A model generated the notes under the pieces. It made no database searches and was not told the DNA's origin. It was given only the letters and a program-made list of their open reading frames with translations. Position numbers and translations under genes: made by a program. A DNA stretch of 46,997 nucleotides from a virus: the IMG/VR virus record IMGVR_UViG_3300020185_000078, positions 1 through 46,997 of that record. One strand, given 5' to 3'. Position 1 is the stretch's first letter, and every line of letters starts with the position of its first letter. Of the stretch, positions 1-45,630 are shown one piece after another.

Positions 1-1195
1 TTTTAACAATGTAACTATCATCACTATGAAAATGATCATCTACTACATATTCTTTATTGAAATAATCAAATAATCGACCACCATCCATTGCTTCTTTTAT
101 ACTATGTACCTTATTATACCAAGCTCCGAATGCTGGGTCTCTATCTAGGTTAGCCATCACCTCTGGTGAGAAAGCATCATATCCTCCAGCTTCAAATTTT
201 TCTAATTCTTTTTCGGCATCTGCTGGATCATCTACATATTTTAAAATAAGATCAAATAACTCATCCATGTTTTCATTATCAAAGACTGTTGGAAGAGCTT
301 CATTAATACCTTCTTGTGATTCATTCATATCATAATCACGAAGTTGTTTATTTATTTTTTCTAAACGATCTTCTAGTTTATTTAATTCATCACCATATCT
401 GTCTGCAATTGGCCCACCTTCTGGTTCAGCTTCTTGCTCCATATCTCTAAATAATTGTTCTCTTTCTTTTTTAAGGTCGGCTAGCATACCTCTTAATGTT
501 AAAGCTTCATCGTAGTCGATTCTTTCACCTAACATAGCATCTATTTTAGCTACATTTTCTTGACCATCTAAATAATCAAAAGCACTATCTAACATTGAGT
601 TAGCTTGAATAATTTTTTTCTGCCACCATTGTGGGAAATCTACTTCACCTTCACCATCATATTTATCAATTGCTTTATAAAGCATTTGAACCATTTTACC
701 AGCTCTAGCTAATTCAGCTTTAAGCATACCTGGTTCATCATCTTGGTGTCCGATATCTAGATCTTCTTTTACTGATGTTTTATATAAAATTTTATGCCCA
801 TCAATTTCTATTTTACCATCACTATGAAGTTTATCCATATCAGATTGTGATAAATTCAGAGTAGTGCCTTTAGCTTCTTCTAAGCCCTTCATTTCTAAAT
901 CATCTTCTTGACCTAGTGCTTTATCTTCTTCACCATAATCAGCGCGACCAGAAAAACCAGTATCAATAGTACTGGTATCTTCTACTTGTAATGCTTGTTG
1001 GATTAGTTCTTTTATTTTATCCTTATTCATGCCTTCTACTTTAGATTTTGCCTGTTTAGTTGCGATACCATACATTACTTTTTCCGCATCCTTACCGTAC
1101 TTTTTAACTAGTGTGCGTTTGTTGGACAACAAACCTTGAATTGCTTCCGCACGTTTATCTAGTTCTCTTTCCGTAAGTTTACGTTCGTTAAGCAT
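1..1195 (-). CDS. Partial acidic phage protein, probably virion-associated (3' end beyond window)
   Basis: The frame opens with ATG at 1195 and stays open to the left edge, so about 398 residues are visible and the C-terminus is missing. The protein is hydrophilic and acidic, with long helical stretches around residues 150-290 likely to form coiled coil. Near the N-terminus (about 24-50) is a Lys-rich segment containing the motif [13 protein letters not shown], which I recall from proteins of uncultured marine T4-like phages; I cannot name a function. L-x-E or I-x-E motifs occur at residues 105-107 (LEE before Ala) and 297-299 (INE before Ala), the second followed by a different acidic segment, so it may have processing sites like those proposed for the 941-residue protein. 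It starts 3 nt after the stop of the upstream gene, so the two are co-transcribed. Confidence 0.75.
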
Positions 1196-4252: not shown

Positions 4253-4825
4253 TTATTGTTTAAATGATTCTAAATGTTTAATTACATCTTTTGTAAATTC
4301 ATTTACTTTTTCTTCATCTATTTTTCCAACCCACTTTTCTAATTCACCATTTTCTGATATAAATGAATCATTACTTTCGGATATTTTTTCTTTTACAAAA
4401 TGTTTAAATTCTTCTATTCTACTATCAATAATTTTATTGTTAATTTTATTATAATGTTCTTCATATTTGCCTTCTGCTTTTAACTTATCTTCAAATTTAG
4501 CATGACAATCTAAACAAAATTGATGTATATTATAATAAGGTTTATCTACTCTTTTCATTAATTTACTACAATTAGGACAAAATAAAGGCATGGTATGTGC
4601 TTTTTTTGCCTTATCTAATTTAGTAATATTTTGTTTAATTCCTTCTTTAATAGTCCAGGTTCTTCCATCAGATTCCCATATATCACCTTCATTATAAAAT
4701 TCTTCGGGATTAGTAAAACCAACACTAGAACGTGTTTTTTCACCATATTTACCTTGCATTAAATTTCTGAGGCGTTCTACGTCTTTTTTCTGGAATTGTT
4801 TTTTTAGAACTGTATCTTTACTCAT
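4253..4825 (-). CDS. Zinc-ribbon protein with C-terminal helical region
   Basis: This 190-residue protein carries a four-cysteine zinc-binding pattern in the middle: FCPNCSKLMK (about 82-91) and FCLDCHAKFEDKL (about 103-115). Upstream of it is a short domain with GDIWESDGRTWTIKEGIKQ (about 47-65), and downstream a long charged helical tail. I recall the same arrangement in hypothetical proteins of T4-like marine phages. A nucleic-acid or protein-binding role is plausible, but no enzyme motif is seen. The gene overlaps the stop of the 941-residue gene by 4 nt (ATGA), so the two are translationally coupled. Confidence 0.65.
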   Translation of the reverse strand: MSKDTVLKKQFQKKDVERLRNLMQGKYGEKTRSSVGFTNPEEFYNEGDIWESDGRTWTIKEGIKQNITKLDKAKKAHTMPLFCPNCSKLMKRVDKPYYNIHQFCLDCHAKFEDKLKAEGKYEEHYNKINNKIIDSRIEEFKHFVKEKISESNDSFISENGELEKWVGKIDEEKVNEFTKDVIKHLESFKQ

Positions 4826-7647
4826 AAACCTAATTGTTTTAATTGTTTAATAGTATTAGCTGTACTAGTATGCAATATACCAATCCCTCCTGCAGCCTCC
4901 CACTGATCTATATTAACTTGTCTATCGTCTATTAATATCGATTCTGGTGTTGCTAATTCTTGTTTTTGTTTAGCATAACGTAATATTAATTTTGTACCAG
5001 GTATTTTATGTTTTACCCAAACATGTTTGCCTATTCTAGATGAATCTTCACGGGAGGGAGCTGATAGTAAATCAGGCTTATATGGTTTTAAATAATCCCA
5101 TAATTCTTGTCCATCAGGCATCCATTTTAAACCTGCCCAAAAACCAACTCCTTTTTCAGAAATTGGGTCCCAAAAATCATCTCCTTTTTGAAATTCACCT
5201 TGTAAATCTACACCAGTTAATTCTTTATAACCACGTTCAAAGTCGGCTAACACGCCATCCATATCACAATAAATTTTATAATCCATAACCTTTTTGTTTT
5301 CTTCTAATCCCATAGCTAATTCACGTGCATATGCATTTAAACCAAATGGATCTTTGTTTTTTTTCTCACTTATAGGTTTATTATCATGTCCACATTTATG
5401 ACATATAAATAAATCATCCCCACCATCTACTATATTCCAACTCCAACCACAATTATCACATTCGATTTTTTCGCCTACAATTGCTTCATTTAAGCCATTG
5501 TTCTTATATGATGTCATATCAACTACTACAGTATCTGTTCCGCTAACTTTAGCTTTCGGGAAGTTTTTCTTAATAATAATTTTATACAGCTTGCTTCGAA
5601 TATTTCCTTTAGCTCCTTCTTCTCCAGTTTTACCTTTAGTAGGTTCGAATGTAATAAACTCAACATCTCCAGCCTTCTTAATTTGTTCTCTTGTAATGTC
5701 AACTATTGTAGACATAATCTTTAGGGGTTCATTACCTCCAGTAAGAGCATCTGCGGAAAATTCTTTACCATCTTTACCTTTAGCTACAAAAGACATATCG
5801 TAGTTAACTGTCTTACCGAATTCTTCTCGATTAAATATAACTTGATATTTAGTGCCATTATCTGTACTAAAATCGTAATACGAATAAGGGTCGTTTGATC
5901 CTTCAGGTTTTGAGAAAGTTTTCCATTTATATGGTGCTTGGGATAAATCTCCAATTTCATTTAAAATATTTTCGTTTAAGCTATCAGTAAAATCATTTAT
6001 TTTTATAATGTAATTTTTTACATTTTTAAGACCATCTTTTCCTACTTTTATTATCTCTTCATCTTCATCTTTAATTTGTGGTTCATCAGGGATATTATAT
6101 TCTCTTCCCCAATAATCGTAGGGTTGGATTTTATAATTATTTGAAATCTTATCCCCGTTTAAAACTATTTGGATTTTATTATCACCATATAAAAAGTTTT
6201 TATTTCTAGTAGTAGAAATCCCTAAAAAATCTGTATCCCCACCATCCCAACTTATATAACTACCTTTTAAAGTATTTGAATCTAGAATTTTTTTTAATTT
6301 TTCAGGTGTAGTAATATGATATAAAAGGCCAACTTGTTTCCCCTCATTTAAACTATCAGTCCAATTTCTGAATGTCATTGTACCTTTTAGATTAGCTTCA
6401 GCTTCAATATTATTTAAGTTATCGTCTTCTTGTGTATTAGTTGTAGAAATGTTACCTAATCTATCTTCTAAATTTTGAATATGATGTATCATTTCGTGCG
6501 CATATGAACGTACTATATCCTTTGGATGTCTACCTTCAGTATATAACACGATGTGTTGTTTGTTCGGGTCATAATACGCTGTTTTACCTAAAAAATCGCT
6601 AGCATTTTTTGAGTCTCCATCTACAAATTCTAGTGTAGGTAAGGGTTCAATATTCATACCCTTATCAATCATATGTTGTGTTAATTGAGCTATTTTTTCT
6701 TTAATGTTTATTTCTTTAGAATAGGATGCATTTTCATTTAATTTTTTTAAACGTTGTGTTTTTTTCTTAGATGCTTCTTTTTTCTTAGTGATATAATCTA
6801 AACCAGTTTTTAAACGTTTTTTTACTTTAGGATCCTTTGCTCTACCATATGCCGCTCTTACTCTTTGATGTATTAAGTTAATAATCTGAGATTGTCTAGC
6901 ATGTGATTTAGCTTTAAATGAAGTTTTATTTAATGTGTCTACTATATCTTGTCTTGTTGAAAATTTAATACCGATTGTATCTTTAGGATCCTCATCAGTG
7001 TATAATCTACGTTTAGATCCTTCAGGTTTTTTACCCGTGCCCTTTTTTGGGTCTTTTTTCTTTTTTCTGCCTTCAGTAATTTTGTCAGCTACTATATTAT
7101 ATACTTGTTCAACTTCTTCATCTGATAATTCAGATGGAACAAATGGTTTAAATTTATCTAATGATATTTTAGATGCATTTCTAGCTGCTGTACCAGAGAC
7201 ACCACCTTGAGTTACAATTGTACGTAAATTTAGGTTTGGATATTTATCTAATGAAGTCGTTCTAGATGCTATATCTTTAAAATCTTCTTCGTTGCCTTCT
7301 CTAGCACCTATAATAAATAATACTTCTTCATCTGGGTGTTCTTTAGCATAGTTGTAAATGCCTTTTATAGGAGGTACTGATGTGTATTTTACTTCAACTT
7401 TAAATGGTAAGTATGTTTTATAGATATCCCAAATTAGAATAGACTCATCAGGTGTAATACCATTTCTTGGTTTACCACCTATTAAGATAATCATTTCATC
7501 TATTTCAGGGTTTTCTTTTAATGCTTGTTTTACAACTTCAAAGTGACCAGAAGTAGGTGGTTTAAAACCACCACCATATACTGCTACTACCTTTTTCTTT
7601 TCTTCTTCAGGTAATAACCCTTTTATTAATTCGTTTACTAAACTCAT
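4822..7647 (-). CDS. 941-aa multidomain fusion: nucleotidyltransferase, metallopeptidase, ART-like, unknown, Zn ribbon, HAD nucleotidase
   Basis: In order: residues 19-190 form a cytidylyltransferase/NMNAT-type domain (GGGFKPPTSGH at 25-35 as the HxGH-like site; SGTAARNA at 151-158 as the ISTxxR-like site). A Lys/Arg-rich linker follows (193-300). Residues 306-430 hold a zincin motif, HEMIHH at 384-389, with a possible third ligand in IEAEAN. Residues 438-550 resemble an ADP-ribosyltransferase fold (YHIT at 443, ISTTR at 477-481, acidic tract near 527-531). Residues 565-715 are a phage domain I cannot name. Residues 728-754 are a CxxC...CxxC zinc ribbon. Residues 790-941 are a HAD-type 5'(3')-nucleotidase (DMDGVLADF at 795-803, IDDR at 906-909). 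L-x-E motifs fall at 12-14, 303-305, 433-435, 557-559, 562-564, 719-721 and 781-783, all at domain junctions. Domain calls are by motif; the ART call is the least certain. Confidence 0.8.
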   Translation of the reverse strand: MSLVNELIKGLLPEEEKKKVVAVYGGGFKPPTSGHFEVVKQALKENPEIDEMIILIGGKPRNGITPDESILIWDIYKTYLPFKVEVKYTSVPPIKGIYNYAKEHPDEEVLFIIGAREGNEEDFKDIASRTTSLDKYPNLNLRTIVTQGGVSGTAARNASKISLDKFKPFVPSELSDEEVEQVYNIVADKITEGRKKKKDPKKGTGKKPEGSKRRLYTDEDPKDTIGIKFSTRQDIVDTLNKTSFKAKSHARQSQIINLIHQRVRAAYGRAKDPKVKKRLKTGLDYITKKKEASKKKTQRLKKLNENASYSKEINIKEKIAQLTQHMIDKGMNIEPLPTLEFVDGDSKNASDFLGKTAYYDPNKQHIVLYTEGRHPKDIVRSYAHEMIHHIQNLEDRLGNISTTNTQEDDNLNNIEAEANLKGTMTFRNWTDSLNEGKQVGLLYHITTPEKLKKILDSNTLKGSYISWDGGDTDFLGISTTRNKNFLYGDNKIQIVLNGDKISNNYKIQPYDYWGREYNIPDEPQIKDEDEEIIKVGKDGLKNVKNYIIKINDFTDSLNENILNEIGDLSQAPYKWKTFSKPEGSNDPYSYYDFSTDNGTKYQVIFNREEFGKTVNYDMSFVAKGKDGKEFSADALTGGNEPLKIMSTIVDITREQIKKAGDVEFITFEPTKGKTGEEGAKGNIRSKLYKIIIKKNFPKAKVSGTDTVVVDMTSYKNNGLNEAIVGEKIECDNCGWSWNIVDGGDDLFICHKCGHDNKPISEKKNKDPFGLNAYARELAMGLEENKKVMDYKIYCDMDGVLADFERGYKELTGVDLQGEFQKGDDFWDPISEKGVGFWAGLKWMPDGQELWDYLKPYKPDLLSAPSREDSSRIGKHVWVKHKIPGTKLILRYAKQKQELATPESILIDDRQVNIDQWEAAGGIGILHTSTANTIKQLKQLGL

Positions 7648-8441
7648 TTAGATAAGAATTGTTTTAATCGCATTTGTGCCTCTTCTTTAGACATAGTATA
7701 TTCAATTACATCATATATAAAATCGTCATCTAACATAGCTTGAATTTCTTCTTTGTCCTTAGCTTTTCGCTCATCAGATTTCTTTTGCTGAGCTGGTGTT
7801 TTAGGTTTAGTACCTTGAGGAGTAAATGGTTTAAGATATTTTTGTATAATTTTATCTATATCTTGCATTCTATCGTCTAATGTATTAGCTACTGCTACAA
7901 AATTATTACCAAATAATTCTTCATATTTAGGTAAATTATCTGTTACACTTTTCCAAGTACGCATTACAATTGCAGGTGCTAAACTTCTATCTTCACCTCC
8001 TGATTTTACATATCTATCTTGATTTTGGCTTAACGAACGTTCTAAATCAGTATACACATATAGCATAAATGTATCATATCCTGCTTCATCTAACTCATTT
8101 TTCAGTTTAGCTGTGGTATTATATGATGCAGCTGTACCATCTAATATAAATGATTCTTTACCCGCTATTATTTGTTCCATCTCGCCTTTAAACTGTTTAT
8201 TAGCTGCTGCCATTTGTTTGGCTTGCTCACTTCTTTCTTCAGGTGTAGCGTTTTTTAAATCTAAAGTAACATTAGCTTTTTTTAATAAAGGAACAAAAAT
8301 ATCGTCTACATTCATTGTTTTTAAACCTCCTAAGTCTAAACCACGTAAAATATATCCTTTACCTGCTCCAGGTGCTCCTGCTAAGATAACCGCTTTAGGG
8401 CTACCTTGTGCTTCTCTTAATAATTGTACTAAACTTATCAT
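7644..8441 (-). CDS. Zeta-toxin-like P-loop kinase with a capsid-targeting-like leader
   Basis: This 265-residue protein has a Walker A motif, GAPGAGKGY, at 22-30, a Walker-B-like IILDGTA-type segment (FILDGTAASYN near 98-108) and an Arg-rich lid-like region (DLERSLSQNQDRYVKSGG). This is the layout of AAA_33/zeta-toxin kinases, which phosphorylate small molecules such as UDP-sugars or nucleotides; the substrate here is unknown. The first ten residues, MISLVQLLRE, form an amphipathic leader ending in L-R-E followed by Ala, matching the length and consensus of the T4 capsid-targeting sequence. The gene overlaps both neighbours by 4 nt (ATGA), so it is expressed with the 941-residue protein. Confidence 0.7.
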   Translation of the reverse strand: MISLVQLLREAQGSPKAVILAGAPGAGKGYILRGLDLGGLKTMNVDDIFVPLLKKANVTLDLKNATPEERSEQAKQMAAANKQFKGEMEQIIAGKESFILDGTAASYNTTAKLKNELDEAGYDTFMLYVYTDLERSLSQNQDRYVKSGGEDRSLAPAIVMRTWKSVTDNLPKYEELFGNNFVAVANTLDDRMQDIDKIIQKYLKPFTPQGTKPKTPAQQKKSDERKAKDKEEIQAMLDDDFIYDVIEYTMSKEEAQMRLKQFLSK

Positions 8442-8983
8442 ACTGTTGGTTTTCCCATTAATGATTTAGTAAATAGTTTCCCACCTATTTCTCTCTTATA
8501 TTGACCATTACCTAACCATTCGATATCTTTACCTTTAAGTACCTTACGTACTAATTCTTCATCGTCAATAGGTTCAACCCCTTTTGCAATTAATATATCA
8601 ACTAGTTTACCTGAAACTTCTATGAAATAACCACTTGATTTTAATTGATCAGCTTTATGGTTTACTACTTTAGATTTAGCAGCACTAGAACCATCATGTC
8701 CTGTTGCTGTAAACTTTTTACCTGCTGCTTTATTTTTAGTAACAGATATAGCATCTATTTCTGGGTCATTATCTAAATCTATTACTTCATATTCGGCCTC
8801 TGATTCTCTACCCGTTACATTATCTGAAGATTTATAATTAGGATGACCACCAATAGGTGCATAAGCGTTATCAATTAATTTATAAATTTCTTCACTATAA
8901 TCCTTTAATTCAGAAGCAGGAATAGTAATCCACTTATTCTTGGGTATATCTATTTCATTTAATAGATCTACTAATTTAATCAT
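8438..8983 (-). CDS. Phage protein of unknown function, possibly GNAT-like, with a capsid-targeting-like leader
   Basis: The 181-residue product begins MIKLVDLLNE followed by Ile, a ten-residue leader ending in L-N-E. The remainder is one domain with the segments DNAYAPIGGHPNYKSSDN (about 38-55), ISVTKNKAAGKKF, GHDGSSAAKS and a C-terminal DIEWLGNGQYKREIGG. I recall these blocks together in phage proteins sometimes described as GNAT-like, but I see no clear acetyl-CoA loop and so assign no activity. It overlaps the kinase gene by 4 nt and follows the esterase gene by 2 nt. Confidence 0.6.
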   Translation of the reverse strand: MIKLVDLLNEIDIPKNKWITIPASELKDYSEEIYKLIDNAYAPIGGHPNYKSSDNVTGRESEAEYEVIDLDNDPEIDAISVTKNKAAGKKFTATGHDGSSAAKSKVVNHKADQLKSSGYFIEVSGKLVDILIAKGVEPIDDEELVRKVLKGKDIEWLGNGQYKREIGGKLFTKSLMGKPTV

Positions 8984-10078: not shown

Positions 10079-10109
10079 GAATATACGAAAGATAGCCCGG
10101 GAAGCCAAG
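10079..10109 (-). promoter_or_regulatory. Early-type promoter CTTGG-19 nt-TATATTC
   Basis: On the minus strand CTTGG (10109-10105) is followed after exactly 19 nt by TATATTC (10085-10079), with transcription expected to begin near 10073. The CTTGG box is the loop of a hairpin whose 7-nt arms are at 10098-10104 and 10110-10116 (one G-U pair). This is one of eight copies with identical spacing; the form resembles the flavobacterial TTTG/TAnnTTTG promoter. Confidence 0.75.
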
Positions 10110-14489: not shown

Positions 14490-14915
14490 CTATAATCCAC
14501 AAAGATCTCCACCAACCACTACACCAGCACCACCTGATATTTCAATTTGTGAGAATGGATCACCATCACTAGTGCCCGGAAATACAGCATACCATCCATT
14601 TGTAAGAACAGTTGATTGATTACTTTGGTAGCATGTATCTCCAGTTGTAGGTATATTTTGTGTTCCACCTCCAGAAGTTCTTTGAAAATATCCTTGTGTG
14701 GTAGTAGTGTTACAAACTAAACCTTGTTTTCCAGGACCTCTATATCTAAAAGCAATAAAAGGTAAATTACTATATCCATAAAAATCAGTTATAGCATCTG
14801 GGGCTGTAAATCCTGCAGTATCACTAAAGGCACCTAAAGATTGATTAGTGGCTGATGCCCCTAATTCAACTCTAATATCATTTATACTTAAAGGTCCTGA
14901 AGATGGTAATGCCAT
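14490..14915 (-). CDS. Small tail-fibre-associated protein
   Basis: The N-terminal sequence MALPSSGPLSINDIRVELG is a recurrent start of phage tail-fibre and tail-tip proteins, in which it likely forms an attachment module. The rest of the 141 residues is Gly/Thr/Ser-rich with two Cys pairs (VCNTTTTQG, GDTCYQ, DLCGL), compatible with a small beta-rich receptor-binding domain. The start codon overlaps the last base of the 1803-residue fibre gene (TAATG), so both are made from the same message and probably act in one fibre. Confidence 0.7.
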   Translation of the reverse strand: MALPSSGPLSINDIRVELGASATNQSLGAFSDTAGFTAPDAITDFYGYSNLPFIAFRYRGPGKQGLVCNTTTTQGYFQRTSGGGTQNIPTTGDTCYQSNQSTVLTNGWYAVFPGTSDGDPFSQIEISGGAGVVVGGDLCGL

Positions 14916-17900
14916 TATAATCTAGATTTAAGTTCGTTGATTTGTTTTTGTTGTTCTTTAATAGCTTCAATTAATAAAGGTACAATTTTTTCATAATTAA
15001 CTGCTTTATATCCGCTATCTCTAGTTGTAACAGCTTCTGGTAATATTGATTCTATTTCTTGTGCAATTACTCCTACATCTCTACCAGTATTACCATGTAT
15101 TGTTTTCTTTTCTTTATTAGTTAATTCTTTCCAATTAAAAGTATTACCACTTACTCCAATTACTTTACATAAAGCATTTTTAATAGGTTGTATATTTTCT
15201 TTTAACCTTCTATCAGAAGTTGAAAATGCTACAACATCATTTGTTGCATCAATTCTACCTACTGTAGTATTTAGTTGGTTAACACAACCTACTGTTAATG
15301 AACCTGTAATAATAGTATTATTCATATAAGCAGCATTAGCTACTGTAGATGATAGTCCTATTCCAATCATATGAACATTACAGTGCTGCGCTGTATTATT
15401 TCTCCCCCCTATTATACTAGAATAATCACTAGTACAATTAGCTCCTGATATTGAGTTAGTATTTCCTCCTCCTATAAAACCCCATCTACCAGAAAATATT
15501 TTATTACAATTACCTCCTACTATAGTGGCACAACCATAAGTTCCAGTACAACTAGTATTAATAACATTTCCACAACCTCCTACTACAATACTAGCAGGGT
15601 ATTGACAGTCAATTTTATTAGAAGTTCCACCTCCTATAAAAGAACAAGACCCAGATATTTGGTTGAAATACCCTCCCGCAAGAGTATTAGCAGAAGTTAA
15701 AATAAGATCAGCATCACAACTATCAAATATACTATTACAACAACCTCCTCCTATATGCGAATTTTTACTAGAAGAAATAAGATTAAATTTACCTCCTCCT
15801 ATAAAACTATTATCTGTATTATTATTTACGGCAAAAGTCTTATTTCCTGGTAAAAGTCGGTTATTACACCCACCTCCAATAGAAGAATGATCAGAATCAA
15901 AAATACAATTTATAGTTCCTCCCCCAATATTAGAACCTATAGATCCTTGACATATAAAATTAGCATTTCCTCCTAATATAGAAGAATTAGTACTTCCTGA
16001 TATGTAGTTAGATGTACCACCTATGATAATACTAGAAGTTGCTTGTTGTAATTCATTTAAAACCCCACCTCCTATAATAGAACAAAAACTTTGACTATTA
16101 ATTTCATTACAACGACCTCCTATTACAATACCATAGGGGGAATCCCTTAGTGTTGACCCTTTACTCTCACCTCCTACTACAACCCCGTACTCTGAAGCAG
16201 ATATAAGAGCAAAACCACCACCACCTATAAAAGAACAATTAGAATTTGAAGATATTTCATTTAAACTACCTCCCGCAATAGTTGAAAAACAACCATCAGT
16301 TGTGTTTGACCCACTTATGGGTTGAATACCTGAGTCTGTGTTAGCAGGAGTATTATATTCATACGGACCTGCTGGACCATCTTGACCCGAAGTTCCTGAT
16401 GAACCTGAAGTTCCTGTATTTCCTGAAGTACCTGAAGAACCACTTGAACCTGAAGTTCCTGATGAACCACTTGTTCCTGATGAACCTGAAGTACCTGAAG
16501 AGCCACTTGAGCCTGAAGTTCCTGATGAACCACTTGTTCCTGATGTTCCATCATCACCTACAATACTAAAAGATAAATATAAGGAATCTGAATTTGAAAA
16601 TGGTGTAGTTGAAGAATAAGCTTCATCTGCTATAGTAAAAGTTTTTATAGTAGTACCATCACTTATATCTGTTATTTTAAATAATATAAAGCTACTAGAA
16701 TCATCTCTTTTTGAAACTTGCATGTATGCTTTAGCAGTTGTATTACTTACAGCATCTATAGCATCATAAAAAGTAGCCCAATCATCTCCATTTTCATCAA
16801 AATCTTTTAAATAAGCAGCATTTGCACTTGCTATAGTAGAATTATTAAATCTTATATTACCATTTCCTACACCTGCATCAGGAGTAGTTGTTTGGTCATA
16901 AAAATATGGGGCTGTTATTGCTCCGTTTCCTCCTGAAAGTCCAGATGTTCCTGAAGAACCTGAAGTACCTGAAGAACCTGATGTTCCACTATTACCTGAA
17001 GTTCCTGATGTTCCTGATGAACCAGATGAACCTGATGTTCCTGATGAACCATTTGAGCCTGAAGTTCCTGAAGTTCCTGATGAACCAGATGAACCTGATG
17101 TTCCTGATGAACCAGATGAACCTGATGTTCCTGATGAACCATTTGAGCCTGAAGTTCCTGAAGTTCCTGATGAACCAGATGAACCTGATGTTCCTGATGA
17201 ACCAGATGAACCTGATGTTCCTGATGAACCATTTGAGCCTGAAGTTCCTGAAGTTCCTGATGAACCTGAAGTTCCTGAAGTTCCTGATGAACCTGAAGTT
17301 CCTGAAGAACCAGATGAGCCTGAAGTTCCTGAAGAGCCTGAACTACCACTTGAACCCGAAGTACCTGATGAACCTGATGATCCACTGTTACCGCTAGTTC
17401 CGGATGAACCCGAAGATCCATTTGTACCTGAGGTGCCTGAAGAACCTGATGAGCCTGAATTTCCTGAAGTTCCTGATGATCCTGATGTACCTGATGTACC
17501 TGAAGAGCCTGATGTGCCTGAAGTTCCTGAAGATCCAGATGAACCTGAGTTACCTGAAGTACCTGAAGAGCCTGAAGAGCCTGATGATCCTGAAGTACCT
17601 GAAGAACCCGATGTTCCACTATTACCTGAAGTTCCTGATGAACCACTTGAGCCTGAAGTTCCTGATGAACCAGAAGAACCTGAATTTCCTGAAGAACCTG
17701 ATGTGCCTGAAGAACCTGATGTTCCAGGATTACCATCATTACCACTAGTTCCGGATGAGCCTGAAGTACCTGATGTGCCTGAAGAACCTGATGTGCCTGA
17801 AGAGCCTGATGTGCCTGAAGAGCCTGATGTACCATCATCTCCTCTATCACCTGTTACTACAAATGAACAAATTACATCTTCACCATTACTAAAAGGTGCT

Positions 17901-20326
17901 GTATCAGATGAAGCTTCTGGGGATACGTCTAATGTCCACCATGTTCCATTATCTGTTAATTCTGTTATTGCCCAAAGAATAAATTGAGCTGAGTCAAATT
18001 TATTAGAAATTCTAATATGACCTTTCACAGCTGAGGTCGAACTATCTATTGTTTGTAAAAATGATTCAATACTATCACCATCATCTGTAGTTTGGCTAAT
18101 ATAAACTTTACTAGCAAGATTTTGGTTTGTATTATTTACTTTAACATCACCTGAACCTGGATCACTAGCGTCTGTTGCTGTATCAAATGTATAATCAAAT
18201 GTAGCACCTCCAAAATTACCATCTTGACCTGAAGTTCCTGAAGAACCTGATGAACCTGAAGAGCCATTTGTACCTGAAGTACCTGATGAACCACTTGAGC
18301 CTGAAGTACCTGATGAACCAGAAGAACCACTTGAGCCTGAAGTACCTGATGAACCTGAGGTACCTGAAAAACCAGACGTACCTGATGAACCTGAGGAACC
18401 TGAACTACCATTTGAGCCTGAGGTACCTGAAGAACCCGAAGTTCCGTTATTTCCCGAAGTACCTGAAGATCCAGATGAACCTGAGTTACCTGAAGTACCT
18501 GAAGAACCAGATGAACCTGAGTTACCTGAAGTACCTGAAGTACCTGAAGTACCTGAGGAACCTGAAGTTCCGCTATCTCCTGAAGTTCCTGATGAACCAC
18601 TTGAGCCTGAAGTACCTGATGAACCACTTGTTCCATTTGTACCTGAAGTTCCTGATGAACCTGAAGTTCCATCTGTACCACTTGTACCTGAACTACCACT
18701 TGTACCTGATGTTCCCGAAGTACCTGAAGAACCCGATGTGCCTGAATTTCCTGAGGTACCTGATGAACCAGAAGTTCCGCTGTCTCCTGAAGTTCCTGAA
18801 GAGCCTGAAGAACCATCTGAACCTGATGTGCCTGATGTACCTGATGTTCCTGAAGAACCTGATGTACCATCTTCACCTGAAGTACCAGAAGAACCTGATG
18901 TACCATTTGAACCTGATGTTCCTGATGTTCCTGATGTTCCTGAAGAACCACTTGTTCCGTCTGTACCTGAAGTACCAGAAGAACCAGATGTACCATTTAT
19001 ACCACTTGTACCACTTGTACCTGATGTTCCTGCATCTCCATATCCTACTAATTTACTCATATTAAATGAGACGTTAATAGGTGTAAAATTTGTTGGGCCT
19101 GATGCTGTTTTAAATCTAATTCCTACCTCATCTCCATTTGCTAATTCTAATATGTCAGTAATAGAAAATGAACCCTTTGAATTATTTGCAAATAATCTAG
19201 AAGTTGTTGTTGGTGTTTGTTCTACACCATTTAAAAATATTGCTGCAGTTAAAGTATCTGCACCCCCTGCTTCAAATGTATATGAAGCATTTATTAAATA
19301 ATCCCCAGCTAATTCTGTTTGTGGTATTGTATATATATCTGCTGTTGTTCCTGTTCCTGCAGTAAAAGTTAAAGATAAAGATCTTCCTTGAGCTCCTGTA
19401 TTCCATCCTTGGAATGAAGTACCTATAGAAATTGCAGAACCTGCAACTTCAAATATTTCACCATATGCTGTAGCTCCTTCTACAAAACCATTTGTACCTG
19501 AAGTTCCTGATGTACCTGATGAACCATCTGTACCTATACCCGAAGTACCTGAAGAACCTGAAGTTCCATCTGTACCACTTGTACCTGAACTACCACTTGT
19601 ACCTGATGTTCCCGAAGTACCTGAAGAACCCGATGTGCCTGAATTTCCTGAGGTACCTGATGAACCACTTGTTCCACTTGTACCTCCTGTTCCTGATGTT
19701 CCTGAAGTTCCTGATGAGCCACTTGTTCCGTCTGTACCTGAAGTTCCAGATGAACCTGAAGTACCACTTGTGCCACTTGTACCACTTGTACCTGAAGTGC
19801 CTGAAGTGCCTGAAGAACCACTTGTTCCATCTGTACCTGAAGTACCTGATGAACCTGAAGTACCAGATGTACCTGAAGTACCAGATGTACCTGATGATCC
19901 ACTTGAACCATCTGTACCACTTGAACCTGAACTACCATCTGTACCTGAAGTGCCATTTGTACCTGAAGTACCATTTGTACCTGAAGTACCACTTGTGCCA
20001 CTTGTACCACTTGTACCTGAAGTTCCTGAAGTACCACTTGTGCCACTTGTACCACTTGTACCACTTGTACCTGAAGTACCATCAGAAGGTGCTAGGGTCT
20101 TGAATACTTGACCTGTAGTATTATTGTAACTTAAACGATAGGTTTGGGATGTCGATAATAAATTATTAGGATCAATATATAAAGATCCTGTTAATGTTAA
20201 TGAACCTGATATGTTAATATCATATGCTTCAGTTCCTGTAAAGGCTTCAACAGATTGAGATACGTGTTGAGCTTGAACAATTTGTCCTGTAACTATTTCT
20301 GCTTGATATTTAAACTCTTCGGCCAT
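14915..20326 (-). CDS. Giant tail fibre with collagen-like GTS repeats, IGGG repeats and an S74-type chaperone domain
   Basis: The 1803-residue protein has an N-terminal attachment region (1-79), then four tracts of Gly-X-Ser triplets (GTS, GSS, GNS, GDS) at roughly 79-279, 430-697, 832-1135 and 1257-1317. These are collagen-like Gly-X-Y repeats with no proline. Three globular beta domains lie between them (280-429, 698-832, 1136-1257); the second and third resemble each other (both contain a TAPFSN/TTPFSN segment followed by a strand). From about 1330 to 1640 there are over a dozen repeats of the form SxIGGGxxNxI, like a YadA-head or trimeric beta-roll. The end (about 1695-1803) is an intramolecular chaperone of Peptidase_S74 type with SDRRLKENI, where Ser and Lys form the self-cleavage site, then a coiled coil. 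It is expected to form a trimeric receptor-binding fibre. Confidence 0.9.
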   Translation of the reverse strand: MAEEFKYQAEIVTGQIVQAQHVSQSVEAFTGTEAYDINISGSLTLTGSLYIDPNNLLSTSQTYRLSYNNTTGQVFKTLAPSDGTSGTSGTSGTSGTSGTSGTSGTSGTSGTSGTSGTNGTSGTNGTSGTDGSSGSSGTDGSSGSSGTSGTSGTSGTSGSSGTSGTDGTSGSSGTSGTSGTSGTSGTSGTSGSSGTSGTDGTSGSSGTSGTSGTGGTSGTSGSSGTSGNSGTSGSSGTSGTSGTSGSSGTSGTDGTSGSSGTSGIGTDGSSGTSGTSGTNGFVEGATAYGEIFEVAGSAISIGTSFQGWNTGAQGRSLSLTFTAGTGTTADIYTIPQTELAGDYLINASYTFEAGGADTLTAAIFLNGVEQTPTTTSRLFANNSKGSFSITDILELANGDEVGIRFKTASGPTNFTPINVSFNMSKLVGYGDAGTSGTSGTSGINGTSGSSGTSGTDGTSGSSGTSGTSGTSGSNGTSGSSGTSGEDGTSGSSGTSGTSGTSGSDGSSGSSGTSGDSGTSGSSGTSGNSGTSGSSGTSGTSGTSGSSGTSGTDGTSGSSGTSGTNGTSGSSGTSGSSGSSGTSGDSGTSGSSGTSGTSGTSGNSGSSGSSGTSGNSGSSGSSGTSGNNGTSGSSGTSGSNGSSGSSGSSGTSGFSGTSGSSGTSGSSGSSGSSGTSGSSGSSGTSGTNGSSGSSGSSGTSGQDGNFGGATFDYTFDTATDASDPGSGDVKVNNTNQNLASKVYISQTTDDGDSIESFLQTIDSSTSAVKGHIRISNKFDSAQFILWAITELTDNGTWWTLDVSPEASSDTAPFSNGEDVICSFVVTGDRGDDGTSGSSGTSGSSGTSGSSGTSGTSGSSGTSGNDGNPGTSGSSGTSGSSGNSGSSGSSGTSGSSGSSGTSGNSGTSGSSGTSGSSGSSGSSGTSGNSGSSGSSGTSGTSGSSGTSGTSGSSGTSGNSGSSGSSGTSGTNGSSGSSGTSGNSGSSGSSGTSGSSGSSGSSGTSGSSGSSGTSGSSGTSGTSGSSGTSGTSGSNGSSGTSGSSGSSGTSGSSGSSGTSGTSGSNGSSGTSGSSGSSGTSGSSGSSGTSGTSGSNGSSGTSGSSGSSGTSGTSGNSGTSGSSGTSGSSGTSGLSGGNGAITAPYFYDQTTTPDAGVGNGNIRFNNSTIASANAAYLKDFDENGDDWATFYDAIDAVSNTTAKAYMQVSKRDDSSSFILFKITDISDGTTIKTFTIADEAYSSTTPFSNSDSLYLSFSIVGDDGTSGTSGSSGTSGSSGSSGTSGSSGTSGSSGTSGSSGSSGTSGNTGTSGSSGTSGQDGPAGPYEYNTPANTDSGIQPISGSNTTDGCFSTIAGGSLNEISSNSNCSFIGGGGFALISASEYGVVVGGESKGSTLRDSPYGIVIGGRCNEINSQSFCSIIGGGVLNELQQATSSIIIGGTSNYISGSTNSSILGGNANFICQGSIGSNIGGGTINCIFDSDHSSIGGGCNNRLLPGNKTFAVNNNTDNSFIGGGKFNLISSSKNSHIGGGCCNSIFDSCDADLILTSANTLAGGYFNQISGSCSFIGGGTSNKIDCQYPASIVVGGCGNVINTSCTGTYGCATIVGGNCNKIFSGRWGFIGGGNTNSISGANCTSDYSSIIGGRNNTAQHCNVHMIGIGLSSTVANAAYMNNTIITGSLTVGCVNQLNTTVGRIDATNDVVAFSTSDRRLKENIQPIKNALCKVIGVSGNTFNWKELTNKEKKTIHGNTGRDVGVIAQEIESILPEAVTTRDSGYKAVNYEKIVPLLIEAIKEQQKQINELKSRL
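16380..16555 (-). repeat. Collagen-like repeat tract 4 of the tail fibre
   Basis: Tandem 9-bp and 18-bp units encoding GTS/GSS triplets; the shortest of the four tracts. Confidence 0.85.
16925..17840 (-). repeat. Collagen-like repeat tract 3, with exact 90-bp tandem copies
   Basis: About 900 bp of GTS/GSS triplet codons. Within it a 90-bp unit recurs exactly: the plus-strand marker atttgagcctgaagttcc starts at 17051, 17141 and 17231. The exact period indicates recent tandem expansion. Confidence 0.9.
18230..19040 (-). repeat. Collagen-like repeat tract 2 of the tail fibre
   Basis: About 800 bp of GTS/GSS/GNS/GDS triplet codons with imperfect 9- and 18-bp periodicity. Confidence 0.85.
19490..20090 (-). 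repeat. Collagen-like repeat tract 1 of the tail fibre
   Basis: About 600 bp of triplet repeats, including an almost pure (GTS)n run at its N-terminal end. It shares blocks of more than 60 bp with tract 2 (compare around 18660-18760 with 19565-19665). Confidence 0.85.
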
Positions 20327-44533: not shown

Positions 44534-44564
44534 GAATATACGAAGGATAGCCCGGGAAGCCAAG
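44534..44564 (-). promoter_or_regulatory. Early-type promoter CTTGG-19 nt-TATATTC with perfect hairpin
   Basis: CTTGG (44564-44560), exactly 19 nt, TATATTC (44540-44534). The CTTGG box is the 5-nt loop of a perfect hairpin: CGGGAAG (44571-44565 on the minus strand) pairs with CTTCCCG (44559-44553). It drives the DUF932 operon. Confidence 0.8.
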
Positions 44565-44978: not shown

Positions 44979-45009
44979 AAATATACGAAAGATATCCCGG
45001 GTAGCCAAG
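44979..45009 (-). promoter_or_regulatory. Early-type promoter CTTGG-19 nt-TATATTT
   Basis: CTTGG (45009-45005), exactly 19 nt, TATATTT (44985-44979). The cassette block TAATGCACCAGAGG lies upstream and CTACCCGGG in the spacer. Confidence 0.75.
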
Positions 45010-45599: not shown

Positions 45600-45630
45600 A
45601 AATATACGAAGGATATCCCCGGTAGCCAAA
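45600..45630 (-). promoter_or_regulatory. Early-type promoter TTTGG-19 nt-TATATTT
   Basis: TTTGG (45630-45626), exactly 19 nt, TATATTT (45606-45600), drives the papain-like gene. The flanking GCGCCGGAGA and CTACCGGGG blocks form a weaker hairpin around the box. Confidence 0.75.

Follow-up and report, generated by a model that had tools for sequence, protein, structure and literature searches.

A predicted capsid-targeted cargo polyprotein with [LIV]-x-E sites at its module junctions in a T4-like marine phage

The sequence considered in the current study, referred to below as the window, is a stretch of 46,997 nucleotides of the IMG/VR virus record IMGVR_UViG_3300020185_000078. It encodes on the minus strand, from 7647 to 4822, a protein of 941 residues, P0001, whose start and stop each share four bases with the adjoining genes. 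An earlier note, made from the sequence alone, had described P0001 as a chain of several enzymes with an L-x-E motif at every domain junction, and had proposed that it enters the prohead as one chain, is cut into separate enzymes and is injected with the DNA. The modular organisation of P0001 and its homologues, the placement of the motif and the standing of this proposal are described here.

The modules of P0001 and their motif sites

P0001 combines at least two domains of disparate activity in a single chain, which is a mark of polyvalent proteins (Table 1). To the domains named in the earlier note is added a basic module at residues 193-305 that it had overlooked and for which a Pfam search gave no convincing match. 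The fold of the nucleotidyltransferase module does not tell NMNAT and PPAT apart. The zincin module has weak Pfam matches to Peptidase_M91 and MPTase-PolyVal (PF18818, E 0.016, below cut-off); a PDB profile search with it matched only designed ankyrin chains, which have been dismissed as spurious. The names ART and DUF6934 are given after Pfam matches below the threshold, and modules related to the DUF6934-like one occur in the loci L041, L050, L052 and L061. The leader-like segment KKNKDPFGLNAYARELAMGLEE recurs ahead of the nucleotidase in many homologues.

All seven L-x-E motifs claimed for P0001 are present at the residues given, namely LPE at 12, LNE at 303, 433, 557, 562 and 719 and LEE at 781; an eighth, LKE at 43-45 inside the nucleotidyltransferase domain, had been missed. 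The motif does stand at all the borders, with the correction that the sites ITE 190-192 and ISE 759-761 are I-x-E and not L-x-E; once these two are added to the L-x-E set, every junction of P0001 has a site. We suggest that the motif should best be widened to [LIV]-x-E.

The five LNE motifs are all situated at domain borders, and the claim that chance would give less than one is borne out (0.31 expected; none of 20,000 shuffled sequences reaches five). The L.E class as a whole is not in excess in P0001 alone by shuffling (8 against 4.97 expected, p=0.11), nor is [LI].E (13 against 10.8, p=0.28). P0001 by itself shows an excess of LNE at borders and not of L-x-E, and the argument has therefore been moved to the homologues, and to the position of the motif rather than its number.

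AlphaFold models the nucleotidyltransferase, zincin and nucleotidase with confidence, and the joints at the motif sites with low confidence. A predicted local distance difference test score (pLDDT) below 50 is given to the segments that contain or adjoin the junction sites at 12, 190, 303, 433, 557, 562, 719, 759 and 781, a comparison in which sites 557 and 562 weigh little because the ART-like domain and the domain of unknown function are modelled poorly. The motifs away from junctions, LKE 43, IDE 49, IKE 315 and ISE 829, are placed in folded regions modelled with confidence. Short helices at residues 2-11 and 770-780 directly precede LPE and LEE. The gene also contains short DNA repeats, which do not mark its joints.

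Table 1. Features of the P0001 locus with their positions in the window
Feature	Positions	Strand	Basis
Putative cargo polyprotein P0001, 941 residues	4822..7647	-	Open frame
Predicted capsid-targeting leader MSLVNELIKGLLPE, residues 1-14	7606..7647	-	Helix 2-11, then LPE site; pLDDT dip 12-14; leader type common to other late-gene products
HIGH-type nucleotidyltransferase (NMNAT/PPAT-like), residues 15-192, ending in ITE 190-192	7072..7605	-	Foldseek to PPAT and NadD, E 3e-8; invariant GGFKPPTxGH, SGTxAR
Basic module, residues 193-305, ending in LNE 303-305	6733..7071	-	Travels as one unit among homologues
Zincin-like metallopeptidase, residues 306-435, HEMIH 384-388, ending in LNE 433-435	6343..6732	-	HExxH and downstream Glu invariant
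ART-like domain, residues 436-559, ending in LNE 557-559	5971..6342	-	Weak Pfam match Tox-ART-HYD1, E 0.004, below cut-off
Spacer of 5 residues NILNE, residues 560-564, between two LNE sites	5956..5970	-	Sequence
DUF6934-like (weak) module, residues 565-721, ending in LNE 719-721	5485..5955	-	Pfam E 0.0036, below cut-off
Zinc ribbon (CxxC...CxxC), residues 722-761, ending in ISE 759-761	5365..5484	-	Sequence; weak zinc-ribbon matches
Short helical leader-like segment KKNKDPFGLNAYARELAMGLEE, residues 762-783, ending in LEE	5299..5364	-	Helix 770-780, then low pLDDT
5'-3' deoxyribonucleotidase (HAD/NT5C), residues 784-941	4825..5298	-	phrog_2643, E 9e-25
Zeta-toxin-like P-loop kinase, leader MISLVQLLRE	7644..8441	-	PF06414, E 1.9e-16
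Protein with leader MIKLVDLLNE	8438..8983	-	MIKLxDLLNE retained in all leaders found
Downstream gene without leader, internal negative control	4253..4825	-	Homologue N-termini without LxE

Homologues and the exchange of modules at the motif

A scan of viral contigs has yielded 63 homologous loci. Their proteins range in length from about 450 to 1500 residues; the nucleotidyltransferase comes first in nearly all of them and the nucleotidase last in most, and the middle modules, many of them further modules without known function, are gained, lost and reordered. In a set of 50 dereplicated proteins, a [LIV].E motif is found within 25 residues upstream of 142 of the 143 domain starts (about 48 at random and 68 for the reversed motif). 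The alignment of homologues suggested in the earlier note has thus come out as it expected, [LIV]xE being retained at junctions with variable linkers and modules, and the contrary outcome that it had named, homologues lacking the motifs, has not come true at these starts.

L.E occurs at 16.95 per 1000 residues outside the recognised domains and at 1.17 inside them, as against 7.19 in linkers and 5.90 in domains for the reversed E.L, and LNE is counted 91 times in linkers and once in domains. The background of L.E elsewhere in such genomes is 4.8-6.1 per 1000 residues, so that L.E is not only enriched at the joints but also depleted in the domains; the depletion fits an avoidance of unwanted cuts. 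A replication set of 16 further proteins, reached via the neighbouring kinase and not via the polyprotein, gives the same picture (L.E 16.4 in linkers and 1.46 in domains; LNE 41 and 0; [LIV].E at 34 of 35 starts).

Homologues have also been aligned in pairs, and the breakpoints at which an alignment sharply ends or starts have been located without use of the motif. These fall within four residues of [LIV].E for 58.8% of the ends (random 13.6%) and 58.3% of the starts (random 13.2%), the reversed motif giving 29.7% and 23.4% against about 17% at random. The modal end is exactly the glutamate, and the modal start exactly the hydrophobic residue.

These comparisons bear on the reading of P0001 as an ordinary cytoplasmic multi-enzyme chain, in which the motif would be a chance or compositional trait of the linkers. 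The linkers are indeed charged and rich in glutamate, and the absence of an enrichment of the L.E class in P0001 alone is on the side of this explanation. We regard it nevertheless as most improbable, since E.L, of the same composition, shows little contrast between linkers and domains, the breakpoints match LxE and far less ExL, and the gene sits in a leader-rich block of head and cargo genes.

The exchange is seen at the level of DNA in the locus L022, the upstream DNA of which is 88% identical to that of the window. Similarity stops at codon 190, spans 301-435 and restarts at 719, which indicates that whole cassettes differ between LxE codons. L022 reads ...TDSLNE-AIVGEKIECDNC, and the window has at the same place 286 more residues, again ending in LNE.

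The nucleotidase is a gene of its own, with its own LxE leader, in Flavobacterium phage immuto and five loci. In L059 and L064 the polyprotein has, fused to its front, a P-loop kinase like that encoded upstream of P0001, and the nucleotidyltransferase leader INELTQFLVDSILNE is buried inside the chain. If the joints are cut, fusion and separation of modules should be equivalent. The buried leaders in L059 and L064, together with the coincidence of breakpoints and motif, could also be explained by a chain that is packaged and injected uncut, the LxE linkers being relics of old fusions of leader-bearing genes and marks of recombination only. Such relics would not predict the depletion of L.E inside domains; moreover L and E are retained as x and the flanks vary, and many joints have LxE alone, without a leader. 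An uncut chain is on these grounds quite unlikely.

A tandem array of six genes is found at L083 (61961-64979 of the related contig G001). The genes have a common leader, MDNFDLKKYLAE-G.L.E, and differ downstream, and two of them contain internal leader remnants; the arrangement suggests that polyproteins may originate by fusion of such tandem genes. A nucleotidase with an LxE-rich leader, MKSIVEVTSINEEELPELYCDMD, is encoded at L138 (2953-3465) in phage Melnitz of the Kyanoviridae. Caulobacter phage Cr30 has a nucleotidase beside ribonucleotide reductase, without an LxE leader. In the window itself, 1-1195 (minus strand) encodes the beginning of another long protein from the operon of P0001. 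It too has LNE, resembles immuto gp079 (841 residues) and G001 55312-57942, and is possibly another polyprotein.

Leaders, neighbouring genes and the prohead protease

The short leader with which P0001 begins has (L/I)xE at its end, as in proteins with a capsid-targeting sequence (CTS) of the T4 type. Comparable leaders are found on the two genes preceding P0001. Among 24 distinct kinase leaders of the MISLVQLLRE type, positions 4, 8 and 10 are invariant (L4, L8, E10), position 7 is L or I, and positions 5, 6, 9 and 11-14 are variable. The N-terminus of T4 IPIII is MKTYQEFIAE in the T4 record, and mutants of IPIII have related positions 4 and 7 to targeting and 8 and 10 to processing, an Asp at position 10 abolishing processing and leaving targeting intact (PMC9026906). 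In length and constrained positions the kinase leaders match the IPIII leader closely. In some relatives the same kinase has an unrelated leader, MNDFDFKKYLAE-GRLLKE, of a type found on six tandem genes of G001. The Zeta-toxin-family kinase of the window, with its leader of the capsid-targeting type, is possibly an injected kinase. The gene at 4253-4825 is leaderless in every relative, and the leader pattern is therefore not an effect of local composition.

N-terminal L.E is enriched in the block of head and cargo genes, both in G001 (23/36 against 15/95 elsewhere, p 2e-7) and in immuto (16/28 against 29/180, p 9e-6). The enrichment of the reversed motif in the block is non-significant, and over all genes N-terminal LxE is in no clear excess, the excess being confined to the block.

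A prohead protease of the gp21 type (family S77), for which the earlier note had proposed a search, has no match in the 47 kb of the window, the record being a fragment. Of 26 relative contigs tested, seven carry the capsid gene gp23, and every one of these has the protease above the Pfam cut-off (PF03420); the other 19, which lack gp23, have no such protease. Judged by these contigs, the absence of such a protease, which the note would have taken against its reading, has not come true. G001, whose nucleotidyltransferase is 98% identical to that of the window, is among the seven. The proteases of the relatives can be aligned with T4 gp21 at the motifs of the catalytic His and Ser, GEL(D/N)HP and G(I/V)SSRG, and they retain [LI]xE close to each of their own two ends. 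T4 gp21 cleaves after (L/I)xE, and trimming at both its ends has been suggested (PMC9026906).

Alternatively, P0001 could be a polyvalent protein in which the zincin domain does the cutting, either inside the head or once the chain has been injected. Nearly all the members have a zincin with conserved HExxH, weakly similar to MPTase-PolyVal, and zincin processing of polyvalent proteins has been predicted by Iyer et al. 2017 (PMC5512222). Against this, neighbouring genes that encode no zincin have leaders ending in the identical [LI]xE motif, which is also present near both ends of the S77 protease and agrees with the published specificity of gp21 (PMC9026906). We consider processing by the zincin improbable.

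Two other features of the window may be mentioned. A GGATATCYTTCGTATATT-like sequence occurs in four copies (44535-44552, 44980-44997, 45601-45618 and 10080-10097 (-); 0.23 expected), three of them just upstream of genes, and may be a phage promoter; the TTG starts that have been called next to it, at 45008 and 45629, are likely to be wrong. A protein of 1803 residues encoded at 14915-20326 (minus strand) is mostly made up of GTSGSSG-type repeats, and the matching region of G001 is split across several frames.

Proposed mechanism and comparison with known systems

From the modular architecture, the motif at its boundaries, the leaders and the protease gene of the relatives, we infer targeting to the prohead, cleavage, retention in the head and injection. 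P0001 is very probably a cargo polyprotein of modular build that a CTS targets and the prohead protease cuts, in a T4-like phage of marine flavobacteria, and the interpretation given in the earlier note is supported by the sequence comparisons. The leader MSLVNELIKGLLPE would direct the whole chain into the prohead core, like the capsid-targeting sequences of T4; the gp21-type S77 protease would cut after the glutamate of [L/I/V]-x-E at each junction; and the products would remain in the head and then enter the host with the DNA. As each module ends in a site, modules could be gained, lost or reordered without harm to their neighbours.

Several points weigh against this interpretation, besides the missing excess of the motif class in P0001 alone and the lack of a protease match in the window. 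The 50 homologues are kin, so that their counts are not independent trials; when the upstream contexts are collapsed the motif is found in 27 of 27 distinct ones, with only four to seven clearly distinct contexts resolved per domain, and those of the zinc ribbon and the ART-like domain often hold the reversed motif too. V at P3 is commoner than the published L/I rule of T4 suggests. The limits of the head and cargo block have been drawn by eye from gene content. The 907-residue homologue in immuto, gp088, has no LNE and has the weaker junctions LAE, VKE and MAE, and the separate nucleotidase genes of L053 and L054 have no leader. The zincin that nearly all members have could do the processing instead.

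It is likely that in this clade of marine T4-like phages the cassette polyprotein cut by the capsid protease constitutes an evolvable delivery system, in which a single recombination event would suffice to add any module that gains LxE at its ends to the cargo for injection, fused and separate genes being interchangeable. The injection of an NMNAT-like and ART-like pair would, as a speculation, be consistent with the packaging of NAD (nicotinamide adenine dinucleotide)-related enzymes reported for myoviruses (PMC9503650). The polyprotein relatives L142 and L141 are on contigs binned with bacterial metagenome-assembled genomes, one of them Winogradskyella, hinting at flavobacterial hosts.

If the proposal is true, phages make use, as many RNA viruses do, of a polyprotein that is cut by a protease of their own, in this case for loading the head with a mixture of enzymes. 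The rule of [LIV]xE at joints and leaders would then serve to list which proteins uncultured marine phages inject, most of these proteins being without known function, and would offer a natural design for loading several proteins into T4-like heads. The question of which proteins a phage injects would become testable by the virion proteome of a cultured relative.

A literature search that covered few subscription journals has found neither a description of a cargo polyprotein cut by a prohead protease with modules exchanged at the sites nor a virion proteome of immuto. In the literature examined, prohead proteases act in propeptide removal or scaffold degradation. T4 internal proteins with leaders and polyvalent proteins are known; their combination in one chain cut at its joints, which we have not found described, would be new.

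A syntenic homologue is found in the cultured Flavobacterium phage immuto (host Flavobacterium sp. LMO8), in which nucleotidyltransferase and zincin are combined in gp088 and the nucleotidase adjoins with an LxE leader (gp087). It differs from the window in that the nucleotidase is a separate gene and gp088 is without LNE. Polyvalent proteins, like P0001, have many disparate enzymatic domains per chain, including zincin and ART, and are predicted to be injected; they have been proposed to be processed by the zincin or left whole, and prohead-protease sites at joints are not described in the parts of that work consulted (PMC5512222). A targeting leader is borne by DarB of phage P1 (PMC9024508).

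Ejected head proteins of phiKZ and SPN3US are cut after Glu by a gp21-related protease (gp175 and gp245, respectively), as is proposed here, but cutting at the identified gp245 sites releases N-terminal propeptides, along with the C-terminal propeptide of gp245 itself, and these sites are not joints between enzymes (PMC10052503). The T4 core proteins gp22, gp67 and gp68 are cut by gp21 at several sites, as P0001 may be; in contrast to what is proposed for P0001, they end as small peptides that mostly leave the head and not as functional enzymes (PMC5694885). The T4 proteins IPI, IPII, IPIII and Alt share with P0001 a short leader at the N-terminus that ends in (L/I)xE and recurs on unrelated proteins, an S77 protease (gp21) and diverse cargo. 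The T4 internal proteins have one cargo per gene and lose terminal propeptides, whereas P0001 has about seven modules in one chain with a site at each joint.

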